Assembly: GCA_026709985.1 (NCBI GenBank)
Contig: JAPORY010000036.1
Location: 62,001 to 126,000 of the forward strand
DNA length: 64,000 nt
Direction of reading: 5' to 3'
Source of the DNA: Aestuariivita sp.
GTDB lineage: Bacteria > Pseudomonadota > Alphaproteobacteria > Rhodobacterales > Rhodobacteraceae
In this document: piece after piece, positions 14,349 through 49,772 of the stretch
Position numbering within the stretch: position 1 is the first letter of the stretch
How the letters are laid out: every line of letters begins with the position of its first letter
The notes under the pieces: generated by a model
Database searches by the model: none
What the model was told of the DNA's origin: nothing
The model's input: the letters and a program-made list of their open reading frames with translations, nothing else
Position numbers and translations under genes: made by a program

Positions 14349-15722
14349 ATGGCGGATATTGCGGGATTGCACGCGTTTAGCGAAACACCGGAACGCGATG
14401 TGGCGCGTTTTTTTGCTGGGCGGGAGGCCTTCCTTGATCATATCAAAAAAGCCTGCGAGGGCGCGGCGCACACCATCGCCGAAGGCGGCAAGATCATTTC
14501 GGCGACCCGTCTTTTCTACGGCGCGCGTGGGGCGGGAAAAACATCTCTTTTGACGGAGTTTCATGTCCACGCCGCGCGGGGCAATTTTGGGACGCCCGCG
14601 CCCGTTATTGTGGATCTCCCCTCCAGTCAATCCTTACGAAGGGAAGAAGATGTTATCCTTCAGATCGCCGAAGCCCTCGGCAAGGATTCTCTCTTTCGGA
14701 CCACCACTCATTCCGATGCCCGCGTGAATGCCGATATTCCTGTCATCGGCGGCGGCGGAGTTACAAAAGGGCAGGTACAGAATCCTCCCGCAGCGACGTT
14801 TTTTCATCTCAAACAGATTACCAAAACCCTATCGCCGCGCCGCCCTATCCTGCTGTGTGTCGATGAGATTCAAAACATGAACCCCGAGGCGAAGGATATC
14901 ATGGATATTCTCCAACAGGGAAAACACGGTCTCCCGATCATCCCGATCTATGCGGGATTGGGTAATTCCCTGAACGTCATCATGCGCCATGGGGTGTCGC
15001 GTCCCGTCAGTGGCTACATTCACGGTGTGGAAGCGCTCGCCAGCACCGAAGCCGAGGCCGCGGTCACTGCAATGCTAGACCGGTTTAAGGTGGATCAAAG
15101 CGGTGCCGATCGGGATTGGCCCGCGACCCTCGCCCAGCGGGCCGATTGCTGGCCCCAGCATCTCCACAACGCGATGCGCGCCCTTGCCATGGAATTGATC
15201 CGTCGGGACGTCAAGGGTGTACTCGCGCGTGTCAATCCCGAGGCCGTCTTCACGCACGAGCGTCGTCTGCGGATGCTGGCGCACGGATGGCGGATGTCCG
15301 AGATGATTTCGGATCATAGGGAACTCGCGGCGCGAGTCATGCAGCGCGTTGTCGCATCCACCCCGACACGCTCTGAGGTAAAACAGATCATCGCCGTGCT
15401 GCATAAGACGAGGTCTTGCACCTTAACGGAGGGCGTAAGTGTCAACAGCTTTTTTAACGAACTCCTGCATCAAGGACTTCTCCAGGAGTTTCATGAAGAG
15501 CGAGCGGATGGTACCATCGTGGATGTGCTGCGTTGTCCGATCCCGTCTCTTGCGACCTTTGTTATGGAGCGTGGCAGGGTCGATTCATCGCTGCCGCTTC
15601 CGGAGCTGGCCGCAGAGCCACCGCTTAAAGAAGCGCCCGAAGAGGAGGGCGGAGACCCATACGCCTCTCCCGAATCAAAACCTCCCAGTTATGAAGACGC
15701 CGATCCGTCAAAAATTTCTTAG
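14349..15722 (+). CDS. AAA+ ATPase with acidic proline-rich tail (dispersed unit, copy 1)
   Basis: A 457-residue cytoplasmic P-loop ATPase. FFAGREAFL precedes Walker A GARGAGKT (58-65), and Walker B ILLCVDEIQNM is at 167-177. An AGLGNS sensor strand is followed by WPQHLHNAM and a helical C-terminal domain ending in CPIPSLATFV. The last 45 residues are Pro/Glu-rich (LPLPELAAEP, then KPPSYEDADP). The same architecture recurs in the ATPase at 48180, including identical Walker A positions, so the two are paralogues. The layout recalls TniB/TnsC or ExeA-like AAA proteins of mobile elements, but no transposase partner is intact nearby. It follows the 12344 gene after 151 bases. Function unknown. 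Confidence 0.8.
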   Translation: MADIAGLHAFSETPERDVARFFAGREAFLDHIKKACEGAAHTIAEGGKIISATRLFYGARGAGKTSLLTEFHVHAARGNFGTPAPVIVDLPSSQSLRREEDVILQIAEALGKDSLFRTTTHSDARVNADIPVIGGGGVTKGQVQNPPAATFFHLKQITKTLSPRRPILLCVDEIQNMNPEAKDIMDILQQGKHGLPIIPIYAGLGNSLNVIMRHGVSRPVSGYIHGVEALASTEAEAAVTAMLDRFKVDQSGADRDWPATLAQRADCWPQHLHNAMRALAMELIRRDVKGVLARVNPEAVFTHERRLRMLAHGWRMSEMISDHRELAARVMQRVVASTPTRSEVKQIIAVLHKTRSCTLTEGVSVNSFFNELLHQGLLQEFHEERADGTIVDVLRCPIPSLATFVMERGRVDSSLPLPELAAEPPLKEAPEEEGGDPYASPESKPPSYEDADPSKIS

Positions 15723-15753
15723 ACCCAAACTGGTTGGCCGATCAGTTTGGGTC
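15722..15753 (+). repeat. Hairpin overlapping the stop codon, copy 1
   Basis: gacccaaactg (15722-15732) pairs perfectly with cagtttgggtc (15743-15753) around a 10-base loop. The first base of the stem is the G of the TAG stop. No T-run follows, so it is not a classical terminator. The equivalent hairpin at 49567 differs by a T-A to C-G change on both arms, which keeps the pairing. Confidence 0.75.
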
Positions 15754-15852
15754 AGTTGAACCCTTCAGACAAAGAGAAACGCTACATGCAGATAAACCCG
15801 ACTCCTCCTGGTTCTCACCGTCCTGCTTCTCGCGGGCTGCCAGACCGGAGGT
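15754..15852 (+). repeat. 3' module shared with the third ATPase, copy 1
   Basis: Directly after the hairpin, about 100 bases match those at 49599-49697, including ttgaacccttcagac and the segment ending cagaccggagg. Similarity stops at about 15852. Each copy directly follows an ATPase of the same family on the same strand. Confidence 0.75.
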
Positions 15853-15930
15853 AATGGCATTCGGATAGAGATTTTTTGCATTCGGAAAAAAACCTTCACT
15901 TTTGGTACCGGCCGCGCTCCCTATCGGTGA
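15796..15930 (+). pseudogene. Remnant of a tiny lipoprotein gene, copy 1
   Basis: This frame reads a hydrophobic stretch ending LLLAGC, a proper lipobox with the Cys codon at 15838-15840. It has lost its start: a TAA lies at 15793-15795 and no start codon lies between that and the hydrophobic core. Relative to the copy at 49629 two bases are missing near the start. Past QTGG the sequence no longer resembles the other copy and runs towards an IS66 relic. Confidence 0.5.
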
Positions 15931-16343
15931 AACCGGCTTCTGGGTCGCGGGCAAGACGCAATGGCTGCCTGTCGTCACCGACCGGATGCTGACGGTAAAA
16001 GTGCTTCACCCGAAGCGTGGACGCGAAGCGATTGCGGGCATCGTACTTCCCATATGACCAATGCACGCATCAGCTCTGTGGCAGCCACTTTTTACGCGAA
16101 CTCGCGTTCGTCATTGAGGCCAATGGCGATGTCTGGGCGGACGAGATGACAACGCTCCGGCTGGAAACTTGCCACAAGATTAATGCCAGTGAGACCGAGT
16201 TCTTAACCGCATCAACGCCAAGGACATTAATGAGTTTTTTGAAACCTGAGGGCTTTGGTGACAGCCGCATTGACCGAGGTTTGTCGGGCCGAGTGCTGTC
16301 GTCCAAGGAGCGACTAATAAAGCGGCGATCAGTCATCCGATAA
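15912..16343 (+). pseudogene. IS66 family transposase (TnpC) fragment
   Basis: One frame (about 15912-16056) reads GETGFWVAGKTQWL and HPKRGREAIAGIVLP. These match the IS66 catalytic region, where the first reads ESGxRVAGKTxWLH and the second HPKRGREAI. The frame then shifts, with some residues missing, into YDQC and HQLCGSHFLRELAFVIEANG with WADEM, the next conserved IS66 block. Past about 16200 the similarity fades. The 5' part and the C-terminus are missing and no inverted repeats were found, so this is a dead IS fragment. It lies directly behind the ATPase 3' module. Confidence 0.8.
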
Positions 16344-17275
16344 GCACAAGAAATTGATCACCGATGGTGATGCAAGACGCAACTTCAAGGCACTGATCCC
16401 ACATGGAGCCCGAGGGAACAATGTTCGACTAGCTTAGCCCCTTTTGAACAATCAACAATCAGCTTGTAGTATTCTTTTGCGCGTGCTCTCAAGCGTCAGT
16501 GAAGTTCCCAAAGCGGCACCGTAATCTGACCGAAGCCGCGAGCAAGCGGTTAATCTTGATGTTTCGGTGATTATTTCAGCGGCGTTTCCTATGCAGGCAA
16601 TCTGACTGGCGATAAAGGCCTTGCCATTGGGGGCGGCCAAAGAGCTTATGGTATCCGAGATACGGCAATAGGCTTGGATTTGGATCAAGTTATGTGCCTA
16701 AAAGTGTTGACAGGGTCTAGAAAATGCTTGCAGATCCCAATAGATAGATTGCACAAAAAACTCGCCACCAAAATGGGAGTGGGAGCAGGCAGTTACGCAT
16801 GACCTTGTTATTGCTCACGGACGCGGTTACCGAGGCTTGAGATTATCAAACCGAGGAGTGCATAAGTGGATCTTGTGCAACTAAAACCGTCAAGGTCAAG
16901 AGTTTGCACGCTACCAAACTTCTTGCTCGGCTCTAACCTGTTCGCTTGAAGTGCGAACTCGGTACCGCGGCAAAAGGTAAGTGATTTACGATAGCGCAGA
17001 TGTTCCATGCCTTGAATTGATCGGCTCTTCTAGACGAAATTACGGGGCGGCTAACCAATAGGCGTTGAGGCACAGCCCGTCGTCAAGTATAAGATTGAAC
17101 TCATGACCATTTGCGTTCAATCGCCATATTTGTTCTCAACCTTTTGTTAGGTAGGATAGCAAGTGAGTTCGTCCCTTCCGAGAGCAATATCAGATTCGTA
17201 TGATGCCGTTCACATCAACGACTTCGAAATTGTTACCCCCGTTGTTGACGGGAAATTGATTGGGTATCACATAAA
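16344..17275. other. Long gap upstream of betB, no gene recognised
   Basis: About 930 bases without a convincing gene. At 16570-16670 on the plus strand a short frame reads DYFSGVSYAGN and GLAIGGGQRAYGIRDTAIG. This resembles head repeats of trimeric autotransporter adhesins, but it is closed by stops on both sides and is too short to call. The rest appears to be decayed sequence. Confidence 0.4.
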
Positions 17276-18748
17276 GTGTTCAAAGTTATGACGATCAATC
17301 CGAACCCCACAGCAAGTCACTTCGTTAATGGAACTTATATTGACGACACCGATGGACAACCGATTGAGGTGATTTATCCCAGCACTGAGGCTTGCATTGC
17401 GACGATTAATGCGGCGACTTCGGAAGTTATCGAACGCGCGTTGGTATCAGCTGCGGCAGCACAAGCCGAGTGGGCGCAATGGAGCGGAACAGAACGCGGC
17501 CGTGTTTTGCGACGTGCTGCCGAAATCATGCGAGAACGCAATCATGAGTTAAGTGTACTTGAGACGTTTGACACTGGCAAACCCTATCAAGAGACGTCTG
17601 TTGCAGACGCAACCTCGGGTGCCGACGCTCTTGAATATTTCGGTGGAATAGCGGCGACCCTGACGGGCGAGCATATTCAACTCGCGGATGGGAATTGGGC
17701 CTATACACGGCGAGAACCTCTCGGTGTCTGCGCTGGGATTGGGGCTTGGAATTACCCAACGCAGATCGCATGTTGGAAAGCGGCTCCCGCGCTTGCTTGT
17801 GGTAATTCGATGATATTCAAACCGTCACAGACGACGCCTTTGTGTGCTCTCAAGGTCGCTGAAATCCTCTGTGAAGCGGGACTGCCCAGAGGGGTTTTTA
17901 ACGTTATCCAAGGTCACGGGGACGTCGGCGAAGCGTTAATCTTAGATCCGCGTGTCGATAAAGTCTCCCTCACGGGTTCAGTACCGACGGGTTCAAAGGT
18001 CTATGCCGCCGCTGCTGCGAGCTTAAAGCATGTCACTATGGAACTCGGCGGAAAATCGCCTCTAATCATTTTTGGGGACGCTGACATCGAAAATGCCGTT
18101 TCGGGTGCGATTATGGGAAATTTCTATTCGTCTGGGCAAGTATGTTCGAACGGTACCCGTGTCTTTGTAGAACGGAAGATCAAAGATATTTTTCTCAAGC
18201 GGCTACAGGAGCGATTGACGTCTGTTGTTGTCGGTGACCCACAAGATCCGCTGACGAATTACGGTCCTTTGGTCAGCGGGCAGCAATTGGCGATTGTTCA
18301 AGACTTTGTGAGAAAGGGAATTGATGAGGGTGCAAGATTGGTTGCGGGAGGTTCGCGGTGCCAACGCGAAGGGTTCTTTATGCAACCAACAGTTTTTGCT
18401 GACGTCACGGACGATATGACAATTGCACGAGAAGAGATCTTCGGACCCGTCATGTCTGTTTTGGATTTTGAAACCGAGGAGGAAGTATTAGAGAGAGCCA
18501 ATCGTACTGAGTTTGGACTAGCGGCGGGTGTATTTACGAGAGATTTGGCACGAGCGCATCGGATTATCGCCCAAATTGAAGCGGGAACGTGTTTTATCAA
18601 TTCTTATAACGATGCGCCTGTTGAGGTGCCATTTGGTGGTATGAAATTGTCTGGCGTGGGTCGCGAGAATGCCCGTGCGGCGATCGAGCACTATTCGCAG
18701 TTGAAATCGGTATTTGTCCGCATGGGCGATTTGCCATCGCCATTTTGA
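17276..18748 (+). CDS. betB: Betaine-aldehyde dehydrogenase
   Basis: An NAD(P)-dependent aldehyde dehydrogenase that oxidises betaine aldehyde to glycine betaine, an osmoprotectant. It has 490 residues from ATG 17276, or four fewer from ATG 17288. Aldehyde dehydrogenase marks are GAWNYP, the KPSQTTPL cofactor segment, [12 protein letters not shown] with the general-base Glu, and [14 protein letters not shown] with the catalytic Cys. The C-terminal [15 protein letters not shown] segment is typical of BetB. betA, betI and a choline transporter are not adjacent, so the assignment within the ALDH superfamily rests on sequence feel. Confidence 0.85.
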
Positions 18749-18843
18749 GGCGGCGCACAAATTTGGAAGCGCGACTTGAAGTCAAGCAAATGCGATCAGT
18801 TTTCAGTGTAAACTTGAATTCTCTTGCGCCGGCGTTGAGAACG

Positions 18844-19020
18844 ATGCCGCACCATGTTACGCCAGCGCGCCCCGTCTCTATCGCGTTGATCTGCCTCACA
18901 TGGCCGCTCTGGCGTTGTTTTCGATGACAGTCATCTTGCCATCGTTGCCTAAAATGACCGAATGGCTTGAGATAAGCGACCAGTTGATTTTGCGCGTGGT
19001 GCCCACCTATCTCTTGTCAA
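18844..19020 (+). pseudogene. N-terminal fragment of a Bcr/CflA-type MFS exporter
   Basis: From ATG 18844 the frame reads MPHHVTPARPVSIALICLT, then shifts at about 18898 into ALALFSMTVILPSLPKM and SDQLILRVVPTYLL. Together this is the first transmembrane segment and loop of a Bcr/CflA transporter, with similarity to the start of the intact gene on the other strand (LSALAMNIFLPSLPQM). Only about 60 codons remain. It points toward the 3' end of the intact gene. Confidence 0.6.
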
Positions 19021-19038
19021 ATTTGTATGCGCAAAAAC

Positions 19039-20280
19039 CTATCGCATCAATTGCCGTTCGCGCCAATGGACAAATTGAATAGCTGCTAGGCCGAGAGCGG
19101 CTGTGGTGAACATTAACCACAAGAGCGGCATAGCACCTGTCTCCGGGGCCAGTAAGATACCAGCTAGGGCACTCAGCGCCGCACCGCCACCAATCATCAG
19201 GGAACCACCTAGACCGGCAGCAGTGCCGGCAAGATGAGGGCGCACCGATAGCATACCCGCTGTCGCATTCGGCAAGGTCATACCATTGCCGATACCGACG
19301 AACGTCATGAAGCCGAAAAAAATATATACGTTGCCCTGTCCGTACAAAAAGATCAGCAGCAATATCATGAGGCCAGCGGCATTCACACCACAGCCCCAGA
19401 GAACCATTTGATTGATCCCAAATCGGATTGAGAACCGGCCCGAGAGAAAGTTACCGAAAAAATACCCGAGTGCTGGCGCACCAAAAAATATTCCCAACTG
19501 TGAACTTGAGAGACCAAATAACTCAGTACCGACAAACGGGGCACCGCCAAGATAGGCAAAAAATGCTCCCGATGATAGGGCTGCTGCGGCGGCATACCCC
19601 CAGAACCGCGGCGAGCGAAACAATTCTGGATACTCGCGAAATTGTTGAATGAGAGAGCGATCACTGGCAACCGCGGTTTCGCCAAGATCGGCTTGAATAA
19701 GCCAGATACACAAAACTCCGAGTAGAAACAGCGTCCAGAAACTTGCTTGCCAGCCCAGCCATTCGTCGAGGAAGCCGCCGATAGCAGGTCCGAGCATGGG
19801 CGCGATAGCCATACCCATCGTGACATATCCGATCATTGAGGCGGCTTGATCATCCATATACATGTCACGTACAACAGCGCGGCTAATGACCATGGTAACG
19901 GAGACGATGGCCTGCATCATACGAAACAGTAGAAAAATTGTCGCATTCGGGGCAAAAATACAGCCGAGTGTCGCGAGCAGAAAAAGGCCGACCCCCCACA
20001 TGAGAACCGGTCTGCGTCCATATTTGTCTGATAGGGGTCCGATTACGAGTTGCAAGATCGCAGTTGCTGCGAAATAAACCGCTACCGATAGCTGTATGAT
20101 ACGATAGTCGGCATCAAAATAGAGAGCCATCTGCGGCAAGCTCGGCAAAAAAATATTCATTGCCAGTGCCGATAGCCCCGAAATGAGGATCAAGGTTGCG
20201 ACATGGGGAGGAGAACTGCGATCCAAGAATCGGGTCGGACTTTGCATGTTTGTCATTAGTTTTGTGTATTTATTACTCAC
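19039..20280 (-). CDS. Bcr/CflA family multidrug MFS transporter
   Basis: A 413-residue inner-membrane exporter with about 12 hydrophobic segments. The MFS motif after the second helix reads GPLSDKYGRRPVL, and the FLPSLPQMALYF segment is typical of Bcr/CflA drug:proton antiporters. The start at 20280 is a GTG; ATGs at 20256 and 20247 are alternatives, and no ribosome site decides. It lies opposite to pccB. Substrate unknown. Confidence 0.85.
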   Translation of the reverse strand: MSNKYTKLMTNMQSPTRFLDRSSPPHVATLILISGLSALAMNIFLPSLPQMALYFDADYRIIQLSVAVYFAATAILQLVIGPLSDKYGRRPVLMWGVGLFLLATLGCIFAPNATIFLLFRMMQAIVSVTMVISRAVVRDMYMDDQAASMIGYVTMGMAIAPMLGPAIGGFLDEWLGWQASFWTLFLLGVLCIWLIQADLGETAVASDRSLIQQFREYPELFRSPRFWGYAAAAALSSGAFFAYLGGAPFVGTELFGLSSSQLGIFFGAPALGYFFGNFLSGRFSIRFGINQMVLWGCGVNAAGLMILLLIFLYGQGNVYIFFGFMTFVGIGNGMTLPNATAGMLSVRPHLAGTAAGLGGSLMIGGGAALSALAGILLAPETGAMPLLWLMFTTAALGLAAIQFVHWRERQLMR

Positions 20281-20420
20281 GAACTTGTCTATTCTTACCT
20301 TTCGAAAATTCCCGGAAGCATATGATCATGCGTTGTCGCAACCGACTATTGTTAAAGACCGCTCGTTAAAGTGCTGGGAACGAGTATCCAATTCTACTGT
20401 CCATGTGGCATGAGGTTTAA

Positions 20421-21956
20421 ATGATGAATGATATTTTAACGGAATTAGAACTGCGTCGTGAGACAGCACGGCAGGGCGGTGGACCGCAGCGAACCGTTGC
20501 GCAGCACGGGCGCGGGAAGCTAACGGCCCGCGAGCGGTTAGAGTTGCTGCTTGATGAGGATAGTTTTGAAGAGTTTGACATGTTTGTCGTCCATCGTTGT
20601 ATTGACTTTGGCATGGAGAAGCAACGGCCTTCTGGCGATGGAGTCGTAACCGGATGGGGAACCATAAACGGTCGCCTTGTTTATGTGTTTTCGCAAGATT
20701 TTCGTGTTCTTGGTGGGTCGGTATCAGCAACCCACGCACAAAAAATTTGCAAAGTCATGGATATGGCGATTCAAAATGGTGCGCCGATTATTGGACTGAA
20801 TGACTCGGGCGGGGCTCGCATTCAAGAGGGGGTCGACTCACTTGCTGGTTATGGCGAAGTCTTTCAACGCAATATTGAAGCATCCGGGGTTATTCCTCAA
20901 ATCAGTGTCATTATGGGACCTTGCGCTGGTGGTGCCGTTTACTCGCCAGCAATGACCGACTTTATTCTAATGGTTAAAGATTCGTCCTACATGTTTGTTA
21001 CGGGCCCTGACGTGGTAAAGACCGTCACCAATGAGCAGGTTACGGCAGAAGAATTGGGCGGGGCCAAGACTCATACACGCAAGTCCTCGGTCGCTGATGC
21101 CGCTTTTGAAAATGATGTCGAGGCTCTACAGCAAGTACGCCGGCTGTTTGATTTTCTGCCGCTCAACAATCGATCCAAGCCACCAACTCGGCCAGTTTTT
21201 GATGACCCAGAACGATACGAGATGTCGCTGGATACGCTCTTGCCCGATAATCCGAACCAGCCCTATGATATGAAGGAACTGATTATAAAGGTTGCGGATG
21301 AAGCGGATTTCTTTGAGATCCAAGAAGAATTTGCGAAGAATATTATCACGGGCTTCATTCGTCTGGAAGGACATACGATTGGCGTTGTTGCTAACCAGCC
21401 TCGAGTATTGGCGGGCGTTTTAGATATCGATTCGGCCCGCAAGGCAGCTCGTTTTGTTCGCTTTTGTGATTGTTTCGAAATTCCGATCTTGACCTTGGTC
21501 GATGTGCCCGGCTTTCTGCCCGGAACAGGCCAAGAGTATGACGGTGTAATTAAACATGGTGCAAAGCTCCTGTTTGCATACGGAGAGGCTACTGTACCAA
21601 AGGTGACGGTCATCGTGCGAAAAGCGTACGGCGGTGCGTATGTTGTTATGGCGTCCAAGCACCTTCGAGGCGACGTCAATTATGCTTGGCCGATGGCAGA
21701 AATTGCCGTCATGGGAGCTCGCGGAGCCGCTGAAGTTATTCATCGCTCCGATCTCAAAAATCCAGATCGAATTGCGCAACATACCGCCGCGTACGAGAAG
21801 CGCTTCGCCAATCCCTTTGTAGCCGCCGAGCGAGGTTTTATTGACGACGTGATACGCCCGCACTCAACGCGAAAACGAGTGGCAAGGGCATTTGAGACTT
21901 TGCGCAGTAAGCAGACAAAAACCCCATGGAAAAAGCATGACAATATTCCTCTCTAA
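20421..21956 (+). CDS. pccB: Propionyl-CoA carboxylase beta chain
   Basis: The carboxyltransferase subunit, which moves CO2 from carboxybiotin to propionyl-CoA to give methylmalonyl-CoA. The 511 residues are normal. Seen are [25 protein letters not shown], the [16 protein letters not shown] loop ([12 protein letters not shown]), [12 protein letters not shown] and the C-terminal [19 protein letters not shown] lies just upstream of the ATG. The alpha subunit is 2.1 kb downstream on the same strand, separated by a small lipoprotein gene with a terminator, so the two may be transcribed separately. Confidence 0.95.
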
Positions 21957-22567
21957 GTAGACAATGAGCGATAGGGAGTATTGTTGCTGTTAACGCAGTT
22001 GATCCTTGGAATTCGCTGTGCGCGTTACTGTCGCGTCGCTCAATGCCTTTCGAAGAGCATCGAAGTCTTCTGGACGGCGGCCGTTTCATTCTTTGTCATG
22101 ATGTTGCCCAATGGATGATGATGAAATAGTGCTGCCGTTCACTTTGCTGATTTAGAACTCTGGCAAATTTTAGCGTTGCTCTGGTTTTATCGCTCTAAAC
22201 CAGACTAACAGCGCCAGTTGTGCTATTGTGCTCGCTCTTTCGCATTCAGAGAGGCTGTAATTGCGCGTTTTCCCTATCGATGCACCGAGTCGAACATTGG
22301 TATCTTGGTTCAATCCACTACTCTCATTTAGGCTGGCGCGAGCGTGACCTTTTGCCATTTGCATACGCTCTTGAGAGCAGCCATTTGTTTCGGTGTCGAT
22401 ACGCTGTTTGCAAGCAACAGCAATTTTGCTTCTTGTATTCTAATCGGTTGCCTTTTTGATTCGTTATCGGTAGAAGGCTCACAAAGGTGGAAAATTGACC
22501 TTATTTTATCGTCAAAAAAACGTCTGATCTGAGTCGTTCTTTTTTGAATTCTAATCAGGAGATACAG
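21957..22567. other. Gap after pccB, nothing recognised
   Basis: About 610 AT-rich bases with no gene; the last part must carry the promoter of the small lipoprotein gene. Confidence 0.4.
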
Positions 22568-22699
22568 ATGTCAAAGAGCATCAAATTGATTACTGTTGCT
22601 GGCCTTCTCGCGGTTCTTGCCGCGTGTCAAGCTCCGATGGAAGAAATGGCACCCGAGCCTATCTCCGAGGAGCCCATGGAAATGACCAAGCACGGTTAG
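22568..22699 (+). CDS. Small lipoprotein, 43 residues
   Basis: ATG 22568 is preceded by AGGAG. The product has Lys residues, a hydrophobic core and a lipobox LAVLAAC with the Cys at residue 20, giving a mature peptide of 24 residues rich in Glu, Met and Pro. It should be lipidated and anchored in the envelope. A strong terminator hairpin begins 10 bases after the stop, so it is a single-gene unit. It lies between pccB and pccA, and its role is unknown. Confidence 0.7.
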   Translation: MSKSIKLITVAGLLAVLAACQAPMEEMAPEPISEEPMEMTKHG

Positions 22700-22708
22700 T
22701 TTTTCATG

Positions 22709-22744
22709 CGGGGGGAGTGCATAAACTCCCCCCGTGTTTATTCT
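22709..22744 (+). terminator. Rho-independent terminator of the small lipoprotein gene
   Basis: cggggggagt (22709-22718) pairs perfectly with actccccccg (22725-22734) around gcataa; tgtttattct follows. The stem is 10 base pairs with six G-C pairs in a row. Confidence 0.8.
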
Positions 22745-34560: not shown

Positions 34561-34962
34561 ATTGTTTTGGAGACCATCTTGTGACAACGGAAAAATGTGG
34601 ATCGGTTTTGACCGCAACCTTGATCGAATGATTTGCTCTTATGTTATCCATACGAGCCATAAAAACTCGCTCTTTAGGGCGAGGATATACGGCGCAATGT
34701 TGTTTGAAATGTTTTTTGTTGCGGTTCTTGATGTTTAAGACATTTGCGAGTGGGCAAGTATACCGATGTACAAAGACTTTCGAGCTGTGTTGTAGAAACG
34801 ACAGATTAACGAAAACCAAGTAATCGGCGTGGCAACTCTGAAGGTCCAATTAAGTGAAGGCGGCACGGCTATCCGTCTCTGCTTGTGGAGGCTTGCGTAA
34901 GACGAGCATATTGCTTGCTGCAGCCGATGAAGCAAGAAGCCTGTCATTTAGGCGGGGAGTAG
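34561..34962. other. Gap between hdaA and ppk1
   Basis: About 400 bases without a gene. It should contain the ppk promoter. A single CTGTCATTT at about 34938 is half of a possible Pho box but its second half is absent. Confidence 0.35.
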
Positions 34963-35640
34963 TCACTCCTCTGTATTGGTGCTAGGGAAGAACTGTCGTA
35001 CGAAACCGCGCGTTACAGTACGCTGTTGCGACAAAGCCGCAGCGTCCACTTTTGCAACAATTTTCTGCGCTGCTTCATAAGAGCGCTCCATGCGCGTGAG
35101 TAGGAAAGGAATGACGTCAGGTTTTGGCGCTAATTGGCGATCAAGAAAGAGTTTGGCGAGAATTGCCGCCAACAAGGCATCGTCTGGCGGACCAAGCGAA
35201 ATCGACTGCGCGGCGTTTATTCGACTTTGTAAGTCGGGCAAAGAAAGGTTCCAGTGAAATGCGGTGCCGCGGCCAGTCAGCAATAAATTATGACCTGAGG
35301 CCTGCAATTGATTAAAGAGATGAAACAGGGCCGCAAGCACTGGTTGGTCTCTTGATATTTCTGGAACATCCTCAACGGCTATCGAACCACGGGCAAGTCT
35401 TGGAACATCATCGGTGCGAAGACCACGAGCTTTAAGTATCTGACCGTTAGTTCGCCTTGCCCACATGTGAACGAGATGCGTTTTTCCCGCACCAGCTGGA
35501 CCTGTCAACACGCAACTCGTCCCGTTCTCTTCCGAGAATCTCTTTATGTGAGTGACGGCGTTAGCATTGGATGGTGAGACAAAAAAGTTGCTATGATCTA
35601 AGGCCTCTCGGTGGGGCAATTCAAAATTTAGTTGATACAA
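34963..35640 (-). CDS. hdaA: DnaA regulatory protein HdaA
   Basis: 225 residues, related to DnaA domain III. P-loop GPAGAGKTHL is at 46-55 and VEDVP takes the Walker B position. In alphaproteobacteria HdaA works with the sliding clamp to convert DnaA-ATP to DnaA-ADP; the N-terminal QLNFELPHREAL region fits the clamp-binding QL-x-L/F-x-L/F motif. It follows the permease gene by 2 bases. Confidence 0.92.
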   Translation of the reverse strand: MYQLNFELPHREALDHSNFFVSPSNANAVTHIKRFSEENGTSCVLTGPAGAGKTHLVHMWARRTNGQILKARGLRTDDVPRLARGSIAVEDVPEISRDQPVLAALFHLFNQLQASGHNLLLTGRGTAFHWNLSLPDLQSRINAAQSISLGPPDDALLAAILAKLFLDRQLAPKPDVIPFLLTRMERSYEAAQKIVAKVDAAALSQQRTVTRGFVRQFFPSTNTEE

Positions 35641-37518: not shown

Positions 37519-37526
37519 CCGCACGG

Positions 37527-41236: not shown

Positions 41237-41782
41237 ATGTTTTATAAAGACGAAAAATTAGCAATCCTAATCGACGGCTCAAACCTATTTGCTGCGACAC
41301 GAGCGTTAGGCTTTGACATTGATTTTAGGTTGCTTCGACAAGAATTCATGCAGAAGGGCAGGTTGCTTCGCATGATCTACTACACGGCAATATTGGAAAA
41401 CGATGAATACTCGCCAGTACGTCCGTTGGTCGACTGGTTGCAGTACAATGGTTACAGCATGGTCACCAAGAACGCCAAAGAGTTCACCGACGCCTCTGGT
41501 CGCAAGAAGATCAAGGGAGATATGGATGTTGAGGTCGCTGTTGACGCCATGGAGTTGGCGCCGCATGTCGACCACATTGTGTTATTTTCGGGCGATGGAA
41601 ATTTTCGAGCACTTGTCGAAAGCTTGCAACGCTCTGGGGTTCGAGTGTCTGTCGTATCAACGGTCCGTAGCCAACCGTCGATGATCTCCGACGAACTGCG
41701 TAGGAAAGCGGATAATTTTATCGAACTTGAAGATCTGAAGTCGGTGATGGGTCGGGCTCTTTCTGAAGTCGCTACAGCGTGA
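41237..41782 (+). CDS. LabA-like NYN domain protein
   Basis: 181 residues. The NYN (PIN-like) nuclease fold is visible: AILIDGSNLFAA with the first Asp, KKIKGDMDVEVAVDAM with further acidic residues, and IVLFSGDGNFRALV with the GDGDF-like motif. Members are thought to be metal-dependent RNases or regulators. ATG 41237 starts MFYKDEKLAILIDGSN, like other members; the upstream extension has no support. It is convergent with the AerR-like gene, 12 bases apart. Confidence 0.88.
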   Translation: MFYKDEKLAILIDGSNLFAATRALGFDIDFRLLRQEFMQKGRLLRMIYYTAILENDEYSPVRPLVDWLQYNGYSMVTKNAKEFTDASGRKKIKGDMDVEVAVDAMELAPHVDHIVLFSGDGNFRALVESLQRSGVRVSVVSTVRSQPSMISDELRRKADNFIELEDLKSVMGRALSEVATA

Positions 41783-41794
41783 GTACCGGAATTA

Positions 41795-42595
41795 TCACGG
41801 TCGGTGCTCACCTTGACTAGCAAGATCTCTTACAACCTCCAGCGCTTGTGGGACATCACGAACGACGGCATCGATTCCAACATTGAGTGCCAAGCTGTTC
41901 TCGGTCTGCGTAATGGCACCGCTGACGATAACTCTTACCTCAGGTCGAATCATTCGCAGGGCTAATATCAAACGAATGAGCGCCGCTTGGTGGCGAGATC
42001 CTGAAGCTGATAAACCCAACAGAAAAATGCTCTTATCTTCGAGCGTGAGTAAAATTTCTTCATGACTTGGTCCTACGAGATGGGCCACGTCCCAACCTTC
42101 TCGGCGAAATAAGTCCGTCGCCATTTCGACACCGAGCGTATGCTGTTCTCCAGGGACAGCCGCGAAAGCAAGTCTAGGCTGACATGATTGAACCGGAACG
42201 GGCTGTCGCTTTCGTAACGAATCCATGATCTTGTAAATTCTGGCAGAGGCCAAACTCACTTGCTCGAAAGACCGGGTATCATTTTCCCAGTCCGTACCTA
42301 AGCGCCGTGCCGCCTCAGCCAAATATTTTCGATAGATTCGATCAAGTGGCAGACCGACCTGAAGTAATTCATGGATAAATTTATTTGCTCGGTATGAATG
42401 TTTCGCGCACAATACTTGGCACAGATAATCAAGTTCACTATTCGAAGCGCGCCAATCCTCTTGGGCTGGCGTTTCGAGCCTATCCAACACCGATTTGGCG
42501 AGCAACTCAAGTGATGGTTGCGACAAGACTGATCGCAAAGGCGTCAGCAACTCTTGCGAACTTTGCGGCGTTTGCTTTATCGTGGTGTCATTCAT
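41795..42595 (-). CDS. B12-binding photosynthesis regulator of the AerR/PpaA type
   Basis: 266 residues. The N-terminal helical part (about 55-130) is followed by a B12-binding domain with GEQHTLGVEMATDLFRREGWDV; His152 stands where the cobalt ligand lies in AerR. LLGLSASG and VIVSGAI complete the Rossmann-like fold. In Rhodobacter capsulatus AerR binds B12 in the light and opposes the CrtJ repressor. The nearby puc operon with a TGT-N12-ACA site fits this. An assignment to a different B12 photoreceptor subgroup cannot be ruled out. Confidence 0.75.
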   Translation of the reverse strand: MNDTTIKQTPQSSQELLTPLRSVLSQPSLELLAKSVLDRLETPAQEDWRASNSELDYLCQVLCAKHSYRANKFIHELLQVGLPLDRIYRKYLAEAARRLGTDWENDTRSFEQVSLASARIYKIMDSLRKRQPVPVQSCQPRLAFAAVPGEQHTLGVEMATDLFRREGWDVAHLVGPSHEEILLTLEDKSIFLLGLSASGSRHQAALIRLILALRMIRPEVRVIVSGAITQTENSLALNVGIDAVVRDVPQALEVVRDLASQGEHRP

Positions 42596-42818
42596 AAGGG
42601 CTCAATCAAAGCAGCATTGCGCAGAAGACCGGCGTGAGACGCCCGCGTATCTATAAAGTCTATCTTGATTGTTGCTATGTTTTTGTTAAAATTGCAAGGT
42701 AGCCTGTGGGAGGCTGGAAGTTTTAGACCTTCTATTTGTGTTACGTCCACGCACGACATTTCTTAGATCGCTTGAGGCGATAGTTTGGTGGAAATGAAAA
42801 AAATCAAGGAAGCACAAA

Positions 42819-43781
42819 ATGAAAAAAATGCCGCTTACACTCTATCTCGCATCGCCACGGGGTTTTTGTGCTGGAGTTGATCGTGCAATTAGTATCGTTG
42901 AAATGGCGATAGAAAAATGGGGTGCCCCAGTTTATGTTCGTCACGAGATTGTTCACAACAAGCATGTCGTCAACACCCTTCGGGATAAGGGGGCGGTGTT
43001 TGTGGAAGAACTTGATGAATGCCCCGATGATCGCCCAGTAATTTTCTCTGCTCACGGTGTACCTAAATCCGTGCCGGCGGCGGCAAAGCAACGACAGATG
43101 CTTTATGTTGATGCCACATGTCCGCTCGTGTCAAAAGTCCATATCGAAACTCAGCGCTATTACGAGCAGGGATTGCAGATGATTTTGATCGGCCATGAGG
43201 GGCATCCCGAAACAGTTGGCACGATGGGTCAATTGCCGAGCGGAGAGGTCTTGTTGGTTGAAACGGTTGAGGATGTGGCGACGGTTGAGGTTAGAGATTC
43301 GAATAAACTGGCGTATGTAACCCAAACGACTTTATCAGTTGATGATTCGGCTGATGTGATTGAAGCTTTGAAGAAGCGTTTTCCCAACATCACCGGGCCG
43401 CACAAGGAAGATATTTGTTACGCAACGACAAACCGACAAGAAGCGGTAAAGGCCATCGCAAGCAAAGTCGACGCGCTAATCGTGGTTGGTGCTCCCAACT
43501 CGTCAAATTCGCTTCGGTTGGTTGAGGTCGGTTCCCGTGCAGGTTGCGTTTATGCCCAGTTGGTACAAAGTGCTGACGATATCAGTTGGGCCGACCTTGA
43601 TGGTATTTCTACTGTTGGCTTGACGGCTGGGGCTTCGGCGCCTGACATTCTCGTTGAAGAGGTCATCAATGCCTTCCGTAGCCGCTATGAATTGCAAATC
43701 GAAACGGTCGAAACCAGTCGGGAAGATGTTGAATTCAAGGTGCCGCGGATTCTGCGAGAAGAACACGCGCCCGTTACCTGA
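42819..43781 (+). CDS. ispH: 4-hydroxy-3-methylbut-2-enyl diphosphate reductase
   Basis: Last step of the non-mevalonate isoprenoid pathway, an iron-sulfur enzyme. 320 residues. The three cluster Cys are in [11 protein letters not shown] (Cys17), [13 protein letters not shown] and [17 protein letters not shown] and GHEGHPE are the family motifs. It also supports carotenoid and bacteriochlorophyll phytol supply. Confidence 0.96.
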
Positions 43782-43972
43782 ATTGGGTCAAGAAAATCTA
43801 AAAACGTTAAAGTTGCCATCGACGAGAAATTTATATTGCGGTGAATTGATATTTTAGGGGTTCGCTGAAGTAGACATCTGTCGGTTTTGAGATGCCGTCC
43901 TTCCTTATCGACACCGTTGGGTTTCAAGGATAGAGGTCGCAATAGACACGGTATGGGTGTTCGCGATAACCG

Positions 43973-44623
43973 ATGTTAGACAGCTATTGCCATCTCAAGG
44001 AGGGGCTTTTGGGTGGGCAAAAAACAGAAACGAGTGATCCGACGACACTCGAAGTCTACGCCAAGAAAATCAATGATTACGTCGACATTGCTCGATCTCA
44101 AGCCGAACAAGATCCGCTGATCAATGAGTTTATTGCCACGTGCCCGCCAAACGGTCGCGTGCTTGATTTTGGTTGTGGGCCGGGTCATTACGCCGAGATG
44201 ATGGCGGTCGCTGGTCTGCGGGTTGACGCTATTGATGCTTGTGCAGAAATGGTCCGATACGCCAAGCGGGTCTCTAATGTTGCGACCCGTCAAGCAACCT
44301 TCGATGATCTTGATACTACTGATCTTTATGACGGGATTTGGGTAAACTTCAGCTTACTACATGCGCCCCGTTCTGCTTTCCCGACTCATCTCTCTGCTAT
44401 CGCTAGGGCACTAAAGCAAGGCGGAGTCTTATTTGTTAGTCTCAAGCGTGATTACGGCAGTGCCCGCGATCTTCTGGGACGCTACTACACTTACTTTCAA
44501 CTTTCGGAGATTGAGTGCTTTCTCGGAGATGCTGGCCTCTCGCCGTCTCGACATTGGTCGGGTAGCGGATTTGGCTTATCGGGCGAGCACGCTGAATGGC
44601 TCATGGTTGAGGCTTATGCTTGA
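43973..44623 (+). CDS. Class I SAM-dependent methyltransferase
   Basis: 216 residues. Motif [14 protein letters not shown], followed by [11 protein letters not shown], binds S-adenosylmethionine; [13 protein letters not shown] is the later strand pair. The substrate cannot be told. Its stop overlaps the start of rnhA, and the pair probably belongs to the ispH transcription unit, a common Rhodobacterales order. Confidence 0.87.
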
Positions 44624-45080
44624 AATTATCGCTTACACCGACGGTGCCTGCTCCGGGAACCCCGGTTGCGGGGGGTGGGGGGTTGTGCTGCAGGCAAAAA
44701 GAGAAGAGCGGATGATTAAAGAGCGGCATCTAAAGGGTGGAGAAAAAATGACGACCAATAACCGCATGGAGCTAATGGCGGCGATCTCGGCCCTCGAATG
44801 TTTGCAGCACCCTGCCAAAATCACGATTCATACGGACAGCACCTACGTGAAAAACGGGGTCACGATGTGGATTCAAAATTGGAAGAGAAATAATTGGCGG
44901 GGGGCCAGTAAACAGAAAATCAAAAATATCGATCTCTGGAAGCGCCTTGATGCGGCGAAAGCCCAACATTCAGTAACATGGAAATGGATCAAGGGCCACG
45001 CAGGTCATCCAGGGAATGAACGTGCGGACTCGCTTGCACGGAAGGGGATGAAACCATTCGAAGCTGCTAAGACGGGATAG
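44616..45080 (+). CDS. rnhA: Ribonuclease HI
   Basis: Cleaves RNA in RNA-DNA hybrids. 154 residues from ATG 44616, overlapping the methyltransferase stop. Catalytic residues Asp9 ([11 protein letters not shown]), Glu52 (NNRMELMA), Asp74 (HTDSTYV) and Asp138 (GNERAD) are present, with His128 in the flexible loop. Confidence 0.96.
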
Positions 45081-45123
45081 TCGACTAGAGGCTCCGCTTT
45101 TGCCTCAGAGGATTGTCGTAGCA

Positions 45124-46221
45124 TTAAACATTAAACAGGATATGCAAGATGTCGCCGTCAGCGACTATATAGTCCTTACCCTCAGATCGCATTTTCCCCA
45201 TTTCTTTGGCCATACGCTCGCCACCGCACGAAACGTAATCTTCAAATGAAATTGTTTCTGCGCGGATAAAGCCCGATTCAAAGTCACCGTGAATAACCCC
45301 TGCCGCTTGCGGCGCACGTGTATCTTGGCGGATCGTCCATGCCCGTGCCTCTTTCGGACCAGCCGTAAAGAACGTCTGTAAGCGTAGCAGCGCGTAGGCC
45401 TTTCGAATTAAGCGGTCAAGACCAGGTTCTTCCAAATCCATCTCAGACAAAAAAACTTGCGCGTCGGAAGGGTCCAGTTGCGCGATTTCTTCTTCAATTC
45501 GCGCACTGATCGCGATACATCCGCATCCATTCTTGGCGGCCATCGCCTCAACTGCTTTGACGCGATCATTTTCCACCAGTGAGGTAGCCTCACCAACATT
45601 GCAAACAAAAAGGACAGGTTTTGCAGAAAGTAGTTGCAGATTTTCCCAACAGTCGCGATCATCATCATCAATTGTGAGGACGCGGGCGGGACGACCTGTT
45701 TCCAAGATGGCTTGCGCCTTCTTAAGCAAACGGTATTGTTGTTGCGCTTCTTTGTCACCGCCGCGCAGCTTCCTGATCAGACCGTTCAACCGTTTTGTGA
45801 TCAGATCAAGATCGGCGAGAATCAATTCGAGCTCAACGATTTCGGCATCCGCTAGCGGATCAATTCTTCCGTCGACGTGCATCACCTCGTCGGCCTCAAA
45901 GCATCGAAGGACATGAGAAATTGCCGAAACTTCTCGAATGTTTGCAAGAAATTGATTGCCAAGACCTTCACCTTTGGAGGCGCCCTTAACCAATCCAGCG
46001 ATATCGACAAAAACCATTCGCGCTGGAATTACAGAAGCCGATTCTGCAATTTTCGCGATTGCATCCAATCTTGGGTCGGGAACAATAACCTCTCCGACAT
46101 TTGGATCTATCGTACAAAATGGGAAATTAGCGGCTTGCGCCAGAGCGGTGCGGGTCAGTGAGTTGAATAACGTTGACTTGCCGACATTTGGAAGTCCAAC
46201 AATTCCCATTCTAAGTGACAT
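45124..46221 (-). CDS. ychF: Ribosome-binding ATPase YchF
   Basis: An Obg-family P-loop protein that prefers ATP. 365 residues from ATG 46221 (MSLRMGIVGLPNVGKST); a longer frame upstream is not supported. P-loop GLPNVGKST at 9-17, VDIAGLVKGASKGEGLGNQFL as G3, and a C-terminal TGS domain ending in KDYIVADGDILHILFNV. Confidence 0.96.
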   Translation of the reverse strand: MSLRMGIVGLPNVGKSTLFNSLTRTALAQAANFPFCTIDPNVGEVIVPDPRLDAIAKIAESASVIPARMVFVDIAGLVKGASKGEGLGNQFLANIREVSAISHVLRCFEADEVMHVDGRIDPLADAEIVELELILADLDLITKRLNGLIRKLRGGDKEAQQQYRLLKKAQAILETGRPARVLTIDDDDRDCWENLQLLSAKPVLFVCNVGEATSLVENDRVKAVEAMAAKNGCGCIAISARIEEEIAQLDPSDAQVFLSEMDLEEPGLDRLIRKAYALLRLQTFFTAGPKEARAWTIRQDTRAPQAAGVIHGDFESGFIRAETISFEDYVSCGGERMAKEMGKMRSEGKDYIVADGDILHILFNV

Positions 46222-46891
46222 CGGTTTCTCCCCCAGGGCGCAATGCTCAAAGGCATGTATCGCAGTATCCAATTCACATCTAGACTTTCTTTGTGGATTA
46301 GCGGGTCATCAATTCGGGCTTGCTTGTGGGGTGAGATATTAAACGCGACTTGCATGAGGGACACCCAAGTCTGACTATCGCAGAGAGGCCTCGTCATTTT
46401 CGATACTATGATCAATGGTATGGTTATTGTTAAGAGGCTTGCGATTCTTGAAATCAATAGTTCGACTTTGATCACCGACAACACCGTCTCACTCCAAAAA
46501 CCACATTGAAGTTTCGCTAACTGACACGAATATCCGCGCTAATTCATCGATTTTGGTTTTCTCGTACCTTTCAACTTAGTCTGGTGCCTCGTCGCAACCA
46601 ATAACGATACCTGAACTGTGATTGCGCAGGACGAGCAAATTGCCTATGGGACTACCAACAAGTACGCTTGTGGATTAGAAGACGGCGAATGCCAAGTAAT
46701 TTGAATGAACATCAAGGGCGACCTACGATGTCGCCGAAGAGATTTATGGCGGTTACAGGTAAATGTTTGCGCGGCATTGATGGCCGAAACGACGGACCGC
46801 AATGATACCAAATTCCGAAAAGAGAGTAAAAGAGCGTTACGGATCAGCTCAAGAATACGTTAAGCATCATGGGCGAAAATAGAAAAAGTCA
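46222..46891. other. Divergent gap between ychF and trpA, nothing recognised
   Basis: About 670 bases. No gene, repeat or operator is convincing. Confidence 0.4.
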
Positions 46892-47689
46892 ATGTCACGA
46901 CTCAACACTAAATTAGAAGCCCTTAGGGCAGACAATCGCAAGGCTTTTGTCGCCTACATTATGGCTGGTGATCCCGATTTGCAGGAATCATATGATCTTC
47001 TGTGCGGCCTGCCGAAGGCAGGGGTAGATATTATCGAACTGGGGGTTCCCTTCACCGACCCGATGGCGGACGGGCCTATTATCCAGCTTTCGGGGCAGCG
47101 TGCTCTAGCGGCAGGAACCACAGTCGAAAAGGTCCTAGAGATCGTACAGCGCTTTCGTGACCAAGACCAAACGACCCCGTTGGTGTTGATGGGCTATTTC
47201 AATCCGATTCTGCGTTACGGAGTCGACAAGTTTCTTGAGAAGTGCCGAACAGTTGGGGTCGATGGTCTGATTGTCGTCGACTTGCCACCCGAAGAAGACG
47301 AGGAACTGTGCCTGCCCGCACTAGAGGCGGGCATTTCATTCATCCGTCTCACGACCCCGACCACCAATGACCGGCGCTTGAAAAGAGTTCTGCAAAATAC
47401 GACAGGTTTTGTCTACTATGTGTCGATTACCGGTATTACGGGTGCCGCAGGGGCGCGAGTTGATGCCGTACAGCCAGAAGTCAAGCGCATCAAGCAGCAA
47501 ACGAATTTGCCAGTGATTGTCGGGTTCGGCGTAAAATCGGCTGAAGGCGCTCGTGAGATCGCGGCTGTGTGCGACGGCGTTGTTGTTGGGTCGGCTATTG
47601 TCGAAAAGGTTGCGGCTGGCCTGCCGACAAACCAAGTCCTAGACTTTGTCTCTGAGTTGGCTGCGGGCACCCACTCGGAAGCGTCCTAA
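46892..47689 (+). CDS. trpA: Tryptophan synthase alpha chain
   Basis: Cleaves indole-3-glycerol phosphate to indole. 265 residues. Catalytic Glu49 and Asp60 lie in [26 protein letters not shown] and [10 protein letters not shown] bind the substrate phosphate. trpB is not adjacent, and no ribosome site is strong. The gap on both sides of the gene is large. Confidence 0.96.
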
Positions 47690-48179
47690 TCGAAATTGCA
47701 CCGTTCACTGAATTTAACTTTCAGTCTATAGGCATACAAACCAATAAGTAGTCTGGAGATTATTGAGTAGATCGGGTTTTGAGCGACACAGCTTGCCAAA
47801 AGTTATCCTATCTATAAAGAAATCAACATTGAAGACTGACCATCTTGGCAAGTAGGATAATCCCGAGTATTCTGCCCGCAATCGGATGTCGCAGCGGATC
47901 GAGTGTTGCATCCGATGGGTGTGGTTCTCATATGGATACCTTAGCATAGCATAAGAATTCAGTGTTTCTCTTTGTGTGTTTCCGCTTAACGGAGTTGAGC
48001 AAACAAACGATACGATGACCCCATCTGTTCAAAATTCAGGAAAACCGGAACCGATCTTCAGTCTTACGGAAGCGATTTTGTCAGTCAAAAGTATCGCCAA
48101 GAGTCTGCAACCAAGAGCGCACAGACTGGAAAATTTCTGCAATTTACGCTATCATTTCCGATGATAGAGCGACCGGATC
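47690..48179. other. Gap left of the third ATPase
   Basis: About 490 AT-rich bases without a gene. At the right end ctatcat (48149-48155) and atgatag (48161-48167) form a perfect 7-base inverted repeat with loop ttccg, 13 bases before the ATPase start. It is an operator or hairpin candidate. Confidence 0.45.
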
Positions 48180-49460
48180 ATGATGGCATATTTTAAACGC
48201 TCCGAATTAAAGCACTTTGTGGAGGATGGTGAAAAGGATCATCCCCCGGTGTTTGCGGGCCGCCGCAACATCATGGAACCGATTCTCACAACGGTCAGAC
48301 GCACCGGTGAACGAAGAAGGGGCATCCCCGGCAATACCACGGTTATACAAGGAGCACCGGGCGCGGGGAAAAGTTCCGTTCTGAGAGAACTCACCCGATT
48401 CAATACCGATCTTTCCGAAGAGGGGCCAAAGACCCTTTATATCTCCAGTGTGGAACTGGAGGAGAATTTTTTCGATGTCTTGCTGGCGATCGGAACGCTG
48501 GGACAGACCAAAAAAAGTCGGTTGAAAGCACTCGCGTTGAAGGGTACGCGCCGTTTTGGGGGACTCGCCCTCCTCGACGTCGCGGGTTTGATGGAGGTCA
48601 ATATCCAAACGATCAAAGCCCTGTTTCGAGAGCACGAGATCCGAAATATTGGCGCGCTCCATAAGGCCTTTCCCGCGTCGGATTGGGACACACCCGTCAT
48701 TGTCGCGGTCGATGAAGCTCAAAACCTTCCCCCCGGACGGAGTACATCTCAATCGAATTTTCTGCGCACGCTGCACGAAGCTGTGACACAACTCCCCCTC
48801 GCCCTAGTGCTGGCTGGACTGGGGGACACCCAGTCCGTGATCCGTTCCATGGGGCTAACGCGCCATCAGGTGACGCACAGGATCGGTCGCTTTACGCTGG
48901 ACGAACAGGCCGAACTCACCGACCGATGGACCGCGCATTTCGGCATCACGATCGGGGATCAACGCGGACGTATGGATCAATTGATGGCACCCACCGACGG
49001 CTGGCCGCGTCATGTCCACTGTGCACAGCAGGCCTTGGCGGAAGCCCTCCTCGCCCCGGGAGTCGACGGTCACGCCGACCGGATCCCTGACTGGCGGGAT
49101 GTCCATGCCCGCTCCGACCAACTCCGACACAGCTATTATGAGACGCAGTTCAGCGATGCGATGGTCGCGTCGTGTAAACTTGTTGGCCGGGTGATGGTGG
49201 ATGTGACCCGCGCGTTCCGCGAGGGGGACGGATTGACCTTTGGCCAGGTCGTGGATGCTGTCGACCGCTCCAACGGACACGAACCCGGCAGCGAATGGAC
49301 ATTACCCGAGGACATGAATGCACGATCCTATGTGACTCATCTGATCCATTGCGGTGCGTTAGAAGAAAATCCAGAGACCTGGTCGCTCACCTGTCCGATC
49401 CCCAGTTTCCAGAGCTATATCGGGCGCCGCGGGGGGCTGGATCCGGCCACGCTGGAATAG
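48180..49460 (+). CDS. AAA+ ATPase (dispersed unit, copy 2), tail out of frame
   Basis: 426 residues, a paralogue of the protein at 14349. FAGRRNIM, Walker A GAPGAGKS at 58-65 (the same position), Walker B VIVAVDEAQNL at 173-183, the LVLAGLGDT sensor, WPRHVHCAQQAL and CPIPSFQSYI are all matched. The frame ends at TAG 49460. The conserved Pro-rich tail continues in another frame up to TAG 49565-49567 (ERGGDSYTPP, then PPGYDDDPF). Thus the protein either lost its tail by a frameshift or the tail is reached by recoding. GC-rich codon use contrasts with trpA and lldD. No clear ribosome site. Function unknown. Confidence 0.75.
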   Translation: MMAYFKRSELKHFVEDGEKDHPPVFAGRRNIMEPILTTVRRTGERRRGIPGNTTVIQGAPGAGKSSVLRELTRFNTDLSEEGPKTLYISSVELEENFFDVLLAIGTLGQTKKSRLKALALKGTRRFGGLALLDVAGLMEVNIQTIKALFREHEIRNIGALHKAFPASDWDTPVIVAVDEAQNLPPGRSTSQSNFLRTLHEAVTQLPLALVLAGLGDTQSVIRSMGLTRHQVTHRIGRFTLDEQAELTDRWTAHFGITIGDQRGRMDQLMAPTDGWPRHVHCAQQALAEALLAPGVDGHADRIPDWRDVHARSDQLRHSYYETQFSDAMVASCKLVGRVMVDVTRAFREGDGLTFGQVVDAVDRSNGHEPGSEWTLPEDMNARSYVTHLIHCGALEENPETWSLTCPIPSFQSYIGRRGGLDPATLE

Positions 49461-49567
49461 ACGTCGAAGGAAAACGCGCCCACGTTCAAGAAAGAGGAGG
49501 CGACTCATACACCCCACCCAAACCCAAACCGCCGGGGTACGACGACGATCCGTTTGACATGTTTTAG
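49461..49567 (+). pseudogene. Out-of-frame tail of the third ATPase
   Basis: In the frame shifted relative to the main gene, this stretch encodes ERGGDSYTPP and PPGYDDDPFDMF. It corresponds to EEEGGDPYASPE and PPSYEDADPSK in the 14349 protein. The similarity at both protein and DNA level shows it is the ancestral C-terminus. Confidence 0.6.
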
Positions 49568-49598
49568 ACCCAAACCGGTCGTTCGACCGGTTTGGGTC
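49567..49598 (+). repeat. Hairpin overlapping the stop codon, copy 2
   Basis: gacccaaaccggtc (49567-49580) pairs perfectly with gaccggtttgggtc (49585-49598) around the tetraloop gttc, 14 base pairs. Its first base is the last base of the tail's TAG stop. No T-run follows. Compared with copy 1, both arms changed at the same pair. Confidence 0.8.
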
Positions 49599-49697
49599 GG
49601 TTGAACCCTTCAGACACAGAGAAACTTTATGTGCAGACGTACCCCACTCCTCCTGGTTCCCACCGTCCTGCTTCTTGCGGGCTACCAGACCGGAGGG
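49599..49697 (+). repeat. 3' module shared with the second ATPase, copy 2
   Basis: Matches 15754-15852, including ttgaacccttcagac and the end cagaccggagg. The match ends at about 49697. Confidence 0.75.
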
Positions 49698-49772
49698 TGT
49701 CCGATTGCCGCGATTTTGAACAGTTTTGGAACCTGTGTGGGAGAGACTCCGGAACAAATCGCCACCTGTTAA
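49629..49772 (+). CDS. Tiny membrane or former lipoprotein ORF in the 3' module
   Basis: 47 residues: MCRRT, a hydrophobic core PLLLVPTVLLLAGY, then a short tail with three Cys ending IATC. The position of Tyr19 corresponds to the lipobox Cys in the damaged copy at 15796, so this version would not be lipidated. The start codon is intact here but the ribosome site is weak. Expression is uncertain. Confidence 0.35.
   Translation: MCRRTPLLLVPTVLLLAGYQTGGCPIAAILNSFGTCVGETPEQIATC

Follow-up and report, generated by a model that had tools for sequence, protein, structure and literature searches.

The stretch of DNA analysed here, referred to as the window, comprises 64,000 nucleotides of Aestuariivita sp. 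(contig JAPORY010000036.1, positions 62,001 to 126,000). It contains two AAA+ ATPase genes that share a block of 3' sequence: gene B (14349..15722, + strand), which is intact and encodes 457 aa with an in-frame C-terminal tag, and gene C (48180..49460, + strand), which encodes 426 aa and has an intact core. An earlier note, made from the letters of this DNA alone, had singled out these two open reading frames (ORFs), and both were present at 14349 and 48180 on the same strand. The motifs that it named were also recovered: Walker A at residue 58 in both proteins, Walker B at residue 167 (B) and 173 (C), AGLG at 202 and 212, WPxHxH at 268 and 275, and CPIPS at 396 and 405. With GC contents of 57.4% (B) and 57.8% (C), the genes were GC-rich compared to the window (50.3%), as the note had stated. 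Its description of "two paralogues" was correct in that B and C are distant homologues, but they occupy two of 26 places at which such ATPases were found in the genome, which ruled out a two-copy element.

The two proteins were homologous along their length (BLASTP E = 4e-20, 25% identity), and a profile comparison of B with 75 C-type sequences, on which the note had staked their relatedness, gave 100% probability and an E value of 6e-43. In a blastn comparison of window positions 11801-17300 and 47681-50330, only the 3' block and the reverse self-alignment of the hairpin were matched, so the ATPase parts of B and C have no detectable shared DNA. Together with the 25% protein identity, this indicates an old divergence of the ATPase parts; the 3' blocks are far more similar. 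Protein C passed the AAA_16 profile (35.6 bits, cut-off 32.6) and B alone fell below it (27.3 bits); both carry Walker A and B motifs and belong to the AAA_16-type AAA+ ATPases, B through its homology to C.

AlphaFold2 models of C and B had predicted local distance difference test (pLDDT) values of 92 and 86, respectively, and predicted an ORC/NLR-like AAA+ fold for both. The best fold matches over most of the chain were the archaeal Walker-type ATPases PAB2304 (2QEN) and SSO1545 (2FNA), which were only 11-14% identical to the B and C models and for which, to our knowledge, neither a tag nor a comparable expansion has been described. Further matches were, in order, plant NLRs, archaeal ORC proteins and CED-4, with TnsC lower. 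The models contain the nucleotide-binding domain and winged helix of STAND/NLR NTPases. Unlike plant resistosomes and CED-4, B and C lack a long sensor domain and have a short tail, or in some relatives ankyrin repeats, in its place, and the nSTAND1 score of C was under the cut-off (22.8 bits, cut-off 27.1; no nSTAND1 match was listed for B). A shared fold is no proof of function, and C is likened to STAND/NLR NTPases here by its presumed working mode only.

The note's claim of shared 3' sequence held, although at 204 bp (79% identical) the block was longer than the ~100 bases given. It consists of the last codons of the gene (the tail), a hairpin starting from the stop codon, a spacer in other copies, and a small lipoprotein-like ORF in the window. 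The encoded C-terminal tail has ~23 residues with a consensus ending PEPKPPGYEDDDPxKIP/S. In B the block covers the last codons of the gene (tag codons GGDPYASPESKPPSYEDADPSKIS, 15648..15719, +), which lie in a tail disordered in the model (block-mean pLDDT 48-53, residues 421-457). Its counterpart in C is out of frame behind the stop codon, an eroded tail (49461..49566, +) in which the tag is readable in another frame (GDSYTPPKPKPPGYDDDPFDMF; E = 4e-17, with C's tail among the seeds of the profile). The hairpins of B (15722..15753, +, directly 3' of the stop) and C (49567..49598, +) both have 14-bp stems, and folded as the note had suggested, at -21.9 and -28.2 kcal/mol (z = -4.8 and -7.0), and for neither hairpin did any of 200 shuffles fold as well. 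No Rfam family matched in the window at the gathering threshold, and a known RNA family for the hairpin was ruled out on this ground.

The small ORF that the note saw after the hairpin was present behind C (49629..49772, +, 47 aa), but it appears to be a degraded relative of a gene for a small lipoprotein, a type assigned by eye from the lipobox. Because a tyrosine occupies the position of the lipobox cysteine, its product is probably not lipidated. Relatives were open and had the lipobox cysteine in two contigs of one further genome of the genus (G001 C47 and C192) and one of another (G002 C72). Members of this family end in GTCVGETPEQIANC or close to it (L100 5649ff, L101 1733ff, L102 6563ff), and at L101 the gene adjoins a tagged Fic gene on the opposite strand. 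Behind B, the remaining shared block (15754..15851, +) contains a broken version of the ORF and is followed by a remnant (15909-16105), which we take by its look to be an IS66-type transposase and which is similar to loci in G001 C97 and G016 C83. The window's own genome (G000, 3.5 Mb) had this hairpin-and-lipoprotein version of the block at B and C only.

Protein searches of G000 yielded 27 matches for C and 24 for B, which merged into 26 places, 22 of them of at least 1.1 kb. Two further genomes of the genus, G001 and G002, gave at least 24 and at least 21 matches with a limited number of candidates scored per genome, a search in which G000 gave 21. Outside the genus the family was rare: 5 of 81 sampled relatives were positive, including three of the genus, and so were 3 of 385 genomes in a class-wide sample, including the window's own (at most four candidates scored per genome). 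A protein database search listed 226 relatives for C and 109 for B (E up to 0.001), with Aestuariivita, Roseovarius, Rhodobacter, Boseongicola (for Fic) and a gammaproteobacterium among the names; absence from the 50 matches listed by VIA-align is no evidence against a family. Read from their codons, the ATPase cores are under purifying selection, the ratio of nonsynonymous to synonymous substitution rates (dN/dS) being 0.26-0.37 for C-type pairs with measurable dS, 0.11 for the near-identical pair of contigs C75 (G000) and C9 (G001), and 0.12-0.36 for B-type genes. On contigs C105 (L036), C12 (L030 1526-2776) and C80 (L037), the ATPase carried another C-terminal stretch (such as LYYGT...LWYGD) instead of the tag, and on contig C49 a gene with AAA-ATPase_like and PDDEXK_9 domains (L024 526-2097, -) adjoined a C-type copy.

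The tag was also found on genes unrelated to the ATPases. A profile of 13 tails, all from B- or C-type ATPases, was searched against four genomes including G016 and gave 23 matches (E up to 5): 14 ATPases, five Fic genes or remnants, two at one A-type gene (an ATPase gene with PDC-S27 similarity, as described below), one AbiEii-like ORF, and one solo tail at a contig end. The matches came from three species of the genus, and none was found in G016. The tag was in frame at an open gene end in B- and C-type ATPases, in the Fic genes of G001 C1 and G002 C72, and in the AbiEii-like piece of G002; on contig C32 of G000 it stood at the end of an interrupted Fic gene. Membership in the Fic family was clear (PF02661, 72.5 bits, cut-off 24; HPFxxGNGR motif present), and PF02661 was the sole Pfam match of the tagged Fic protein (E up to 0.01), with no BID domain. 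By eye, five of the best 120 of 5780 Fic homologues ended in the tag, and we therefore regard the tag as an addition in this lineage.

As DNA, too, the module crossed gene families. One Fic tail, hairpin and spacer used as a query matched ATPase, A-type and AbiEii-like loci (20 matches, including its own and reverse-strand hairpin matches). At sites where tails of different families have the same residue, codons were identical in 230 of 323 cases, compared to 136 expected (nine tails, two not in frame), and in 68 of 94, compared to 39 expected, for the five in-frame tails. Pooled proportions of nonsynonymous (pN) and synonymous (pS) differences across families were 0.184 and 0.505 (24 pairs), and 0.166 and 0.555 for the in-frame tails only (8 pairs); the pairs behind the codon and pN/pS figures overlap, and the figures are no formal test. 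The codon identity and the excess of pS over pN indicate common descent of the tail DNA with its amino acids kept. As judged from these alignments, the 3' block is no feature of the ATPases, and the tail codons are common to unrelated genes.

Gene A (12344..14197, +), directly upstream of and adjacent to B, encodes the window's own A-type ATPase, with similarity to PADLOC PDC-S27 (E = 8e-35) and to AAA_16 (38.3 bits, cut-off 32.6). Its C-terminal DNA (14106-14163, 58 bp) was 84% identical to part of B's tail. Upstream of C lies a non-coding spacer, S (48023..48117, +), which recurs 3' of the hairpin at other tagged genes and also precedes C-type and A-type genes. On contig C75 it flanks the same ATPase on both sides, and on contig C104 a C-type ATPase remnant begins directly at the end of a Fic tail and hairpin and has an A-type gene behind it. 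Tail, hairpin and spacer aligned as DNA between unrelated genes, and in their sequence the modules and their neighbours look like pieces of arrays.

Modules and whole units are shared between genomes and have moved. The ATPase units of G000 C75 and G001 C9 were 96.2% identical over 1698 bp, and the Fic units of contigs C32 and C1 were 90.3% identical over 1139 bp, compared to 72% for the syntenic lldD gene. In translated comparisons of the stretches around these units (13 kb against 9 kb, and 9 kb against 4.3 kb), one weak 61-residue match was found and no other shared genes. At the site of C, between trpA and lldD, G002 has ~0.46 kb of DNA and no ATPase, and in G001 the place is taken by an exonuclease gene; the trpA-lldD intergenic DNA gave no blastn match between genomes. 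These sites and the 90-96% identical units at unrelated places in different species bear out the suggestion of a mobile or repeatedly acquired unit. The further suggestion of a non-autonomous element "with its own ATPase" was not supported by the note's own test, as Fic, A-type and AbiEii-like genes have the 3' module too, in the absence of this ATPase. No target duplications were seen by eye at the ends of the compared Fic and ATPase units.

As for what moved the units, the integron integrase (TIGR02249) was ruled out, with 0 of 4 genomes over the cut-off and weaker matches in all four, as in 14 of 14 control genomes; no genome-wide search for transposases or other recombinases was made. The window's ORF lists showed no intact transposase, and beside B and C only the IS66-like remnant after B. 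The window has no tRNA genes, by which tRNA-linked integration was rejected. Neither the C protein (E up to 1e-5) nor the module DNA (E up to 1e-3) had a match in 72,556 plasmids or 50,697 phages, and viral contigs, searched for close relatives only, gave 0 matches; phage or plasmid cargo was ruled out accordingly. Homologous recombination between copies of the module may have spread the units, exchanging the gene while the 3' module behind it stayed fixed. The window also contains an integrase fragment (540-1082, -) with Arm-DNA-bind_3 and Phage_int_M domains and no catalytic domain matched in the ORF, a dispersed repeat of ~324 bp (34644-34966) 90.7% identical to contig C72 of G000 (L032 7411-7732), and a short repeat upstream of C (47969-48026), found again at several loci of G001 and G002.

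The earlier note had offered three readings: a non-autonomous element, a defence gene or a regulator family. Judged by the neighbours and the families that share the tag, a defence gene appears to be the best of them. The tagged Fic protein matched PADLOC PDC-S04 and SoFic, and in G001 the end of a Type ISP restriction gene precedes an ATPase. For a regulator family no support turned up, and no separate test of it was made. We read the sequences as a movable set of defence-type genes with a common C-terminal tag that probably serves as a docking signal. More specifically, we tentatively favour, at somewhat less than an even chance, an ATPase family at 26 places whose tail is also carried by unrelated Fic, PDC-S27-type and AbiEii-like genes, the ATPases likely being NLR-like phage-defence switches and the tail likely docking on one partner. 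Docking and defence are predictions. The hairpin would end transcription, the ATPase core (nucleotide-binding domain and winged helix) would switch state on ATP and a trigger, and the disordered, acidic, proline-rich tail would bring the ATPase to a partner by which Fic and other tagged proteins are recognised as well.

A number of observations weigh against this picture. Among 24 ATPase copies examined of the 26 places in G000, the tag was in frame in four; it lies behind the stop in the copy on contig C75 and in C, where it is also out of frame. The three tagged Fic copies of G000 are one gene with an internal stop and two fragments, none of them whole; the A-type (PDC-S27-type) gene of G002 has the tag out of frame behind its stop, and the last residues of gene A differ from the tag. 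The AbiEii match (19.8 bits) is under the Pfam cut-off (22.5) and lies on a 168-residue piece. With tags so often broken, out of frame or different, the tag cannot be required at every locus, and decay has reached much of the set. B and C had no strong defence match (best PADLOC E = 4.9e-5, a short Walker A match), four of six neighbour or tagged genes had no PADLOC match (the Type ISP end and Fic did), and the genes around B and C read by eye as housekeeping. No partner protein was found, and every genome used is a fragmented assembly. One tag per lineage, an idea made attractive by the C-termini of Fic and ATPase homologues in other lineages, did not hold up in G016, where the short motifs at the ends of Fic proteins differ from those of ATPase-ankyrin proteins.

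C-terminal ankyrin repeats are found on Fic homologues as well as ATPase homologues of other lineages (P0073-P0120, P0138-P0229, P0239-P0349), and an uncounted number of each end in short acidic motifs with proline and phenylalanine such as DDGPSFGM, PSPFD and DDSPSPF. A wider tag code across lineages is possible.

Several alternatives account for parts of these data. The tail might have no job as protein and be the coding part of a recombination site, to which genes are joined as passengers in the manner of integron cassettes. Such cassettes resemble the units in being single genes that can move individually and have a palindromic repeat behind the stop, and here tail, hairpin and spacer move together as DNA, with the tail often broken or out of frame while the ATPase cores are intact. 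Nevertheless, the repeat of our units includes a coding tail, the units are dispersed, no integron integrase exceeded the cut-off, pN was below pS in the tail even for in-frame tails alone, and the reading frame has been preserved in ATPases, Fic genes and the AbiEii-like gene. Both window hairpins are unbroken stems (others have internal loops), in contrast to integron attC sites, in which some bases are unpaired. We regard this explanation as doubtful.

That the tail is an export signal, by which a putative secretion system would pass Fic, ATPase and ankyrin-fused proteins into an animal host, seems unlikely to a greater degree. The ankyrin repeats shared by Fic and ATPase homologues would fit, and the Bep effectors of Bartonella similarly place unrelated N-termini, Fic included, on one common C-terminal module. 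That module is the BID domain with a basic tail, however, while the tail described here is ~23 disordered, acidic residues whose DNA is shared together with a hairpin, and the tagged Fic protein lacks BID and matches PADLOC defence models. An animal host is only suspected; the isolate name CAR1_bin_6 suggests a sponge sample, by inference from the name. The precedent of Bartonella Fic effectors with a shared C-terminal delivery domain is described in PMC8714903 and PMC6509941, and Carteriospongia is one of the sponges sampled according to PMC8163846. Each unit could finally be a non-autonomous transposable element with its own TnsC/TniB-like ATPase, for which TnsC appeared among the lower fold matches. 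We consider this highly improbable: the TniB score of C was 17.7 bits (cut-off 22.4; no TniB match was listed for B), 2QEN, 2FNA and NLRs were better fold matches, the Fic unit is shared without any ATPase, and the plasmid and phage collections had no match.

In searches of open-licence papers, PMC9252829 and PMC8163846 among them, we found no description of a shared C-terminal tag of this kind. If the favoured reading of tagged defence-type genes is true, a tag shared as DNA by unrelated genes of this type would suggest that the cell contains one receptor common to their products. A more far-reaching version, which we put forward as a speculative and rather unlikely one, is a plug-in defence arsenal, in which a single lineage would use a mobile 3' module of tag codons, stop, hairpin and spacer to graft one address tag onto unrelated immune-type proteins. 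The general view is that the shuffling of defence genes involves entire genes or operons. With such an arsenal, a newly captured NLR-like ATPase, Fic enzyme or toxin would be wired at once to the shared partner, a mirror image of polymorphic toxins in which the front is variable and the tail fixed. The tag would provide a sequence handle for unknown members, since any gene ending in it would be a candidate, and through the tag peptide the coordination of diverse immune proteins would become directly testable.
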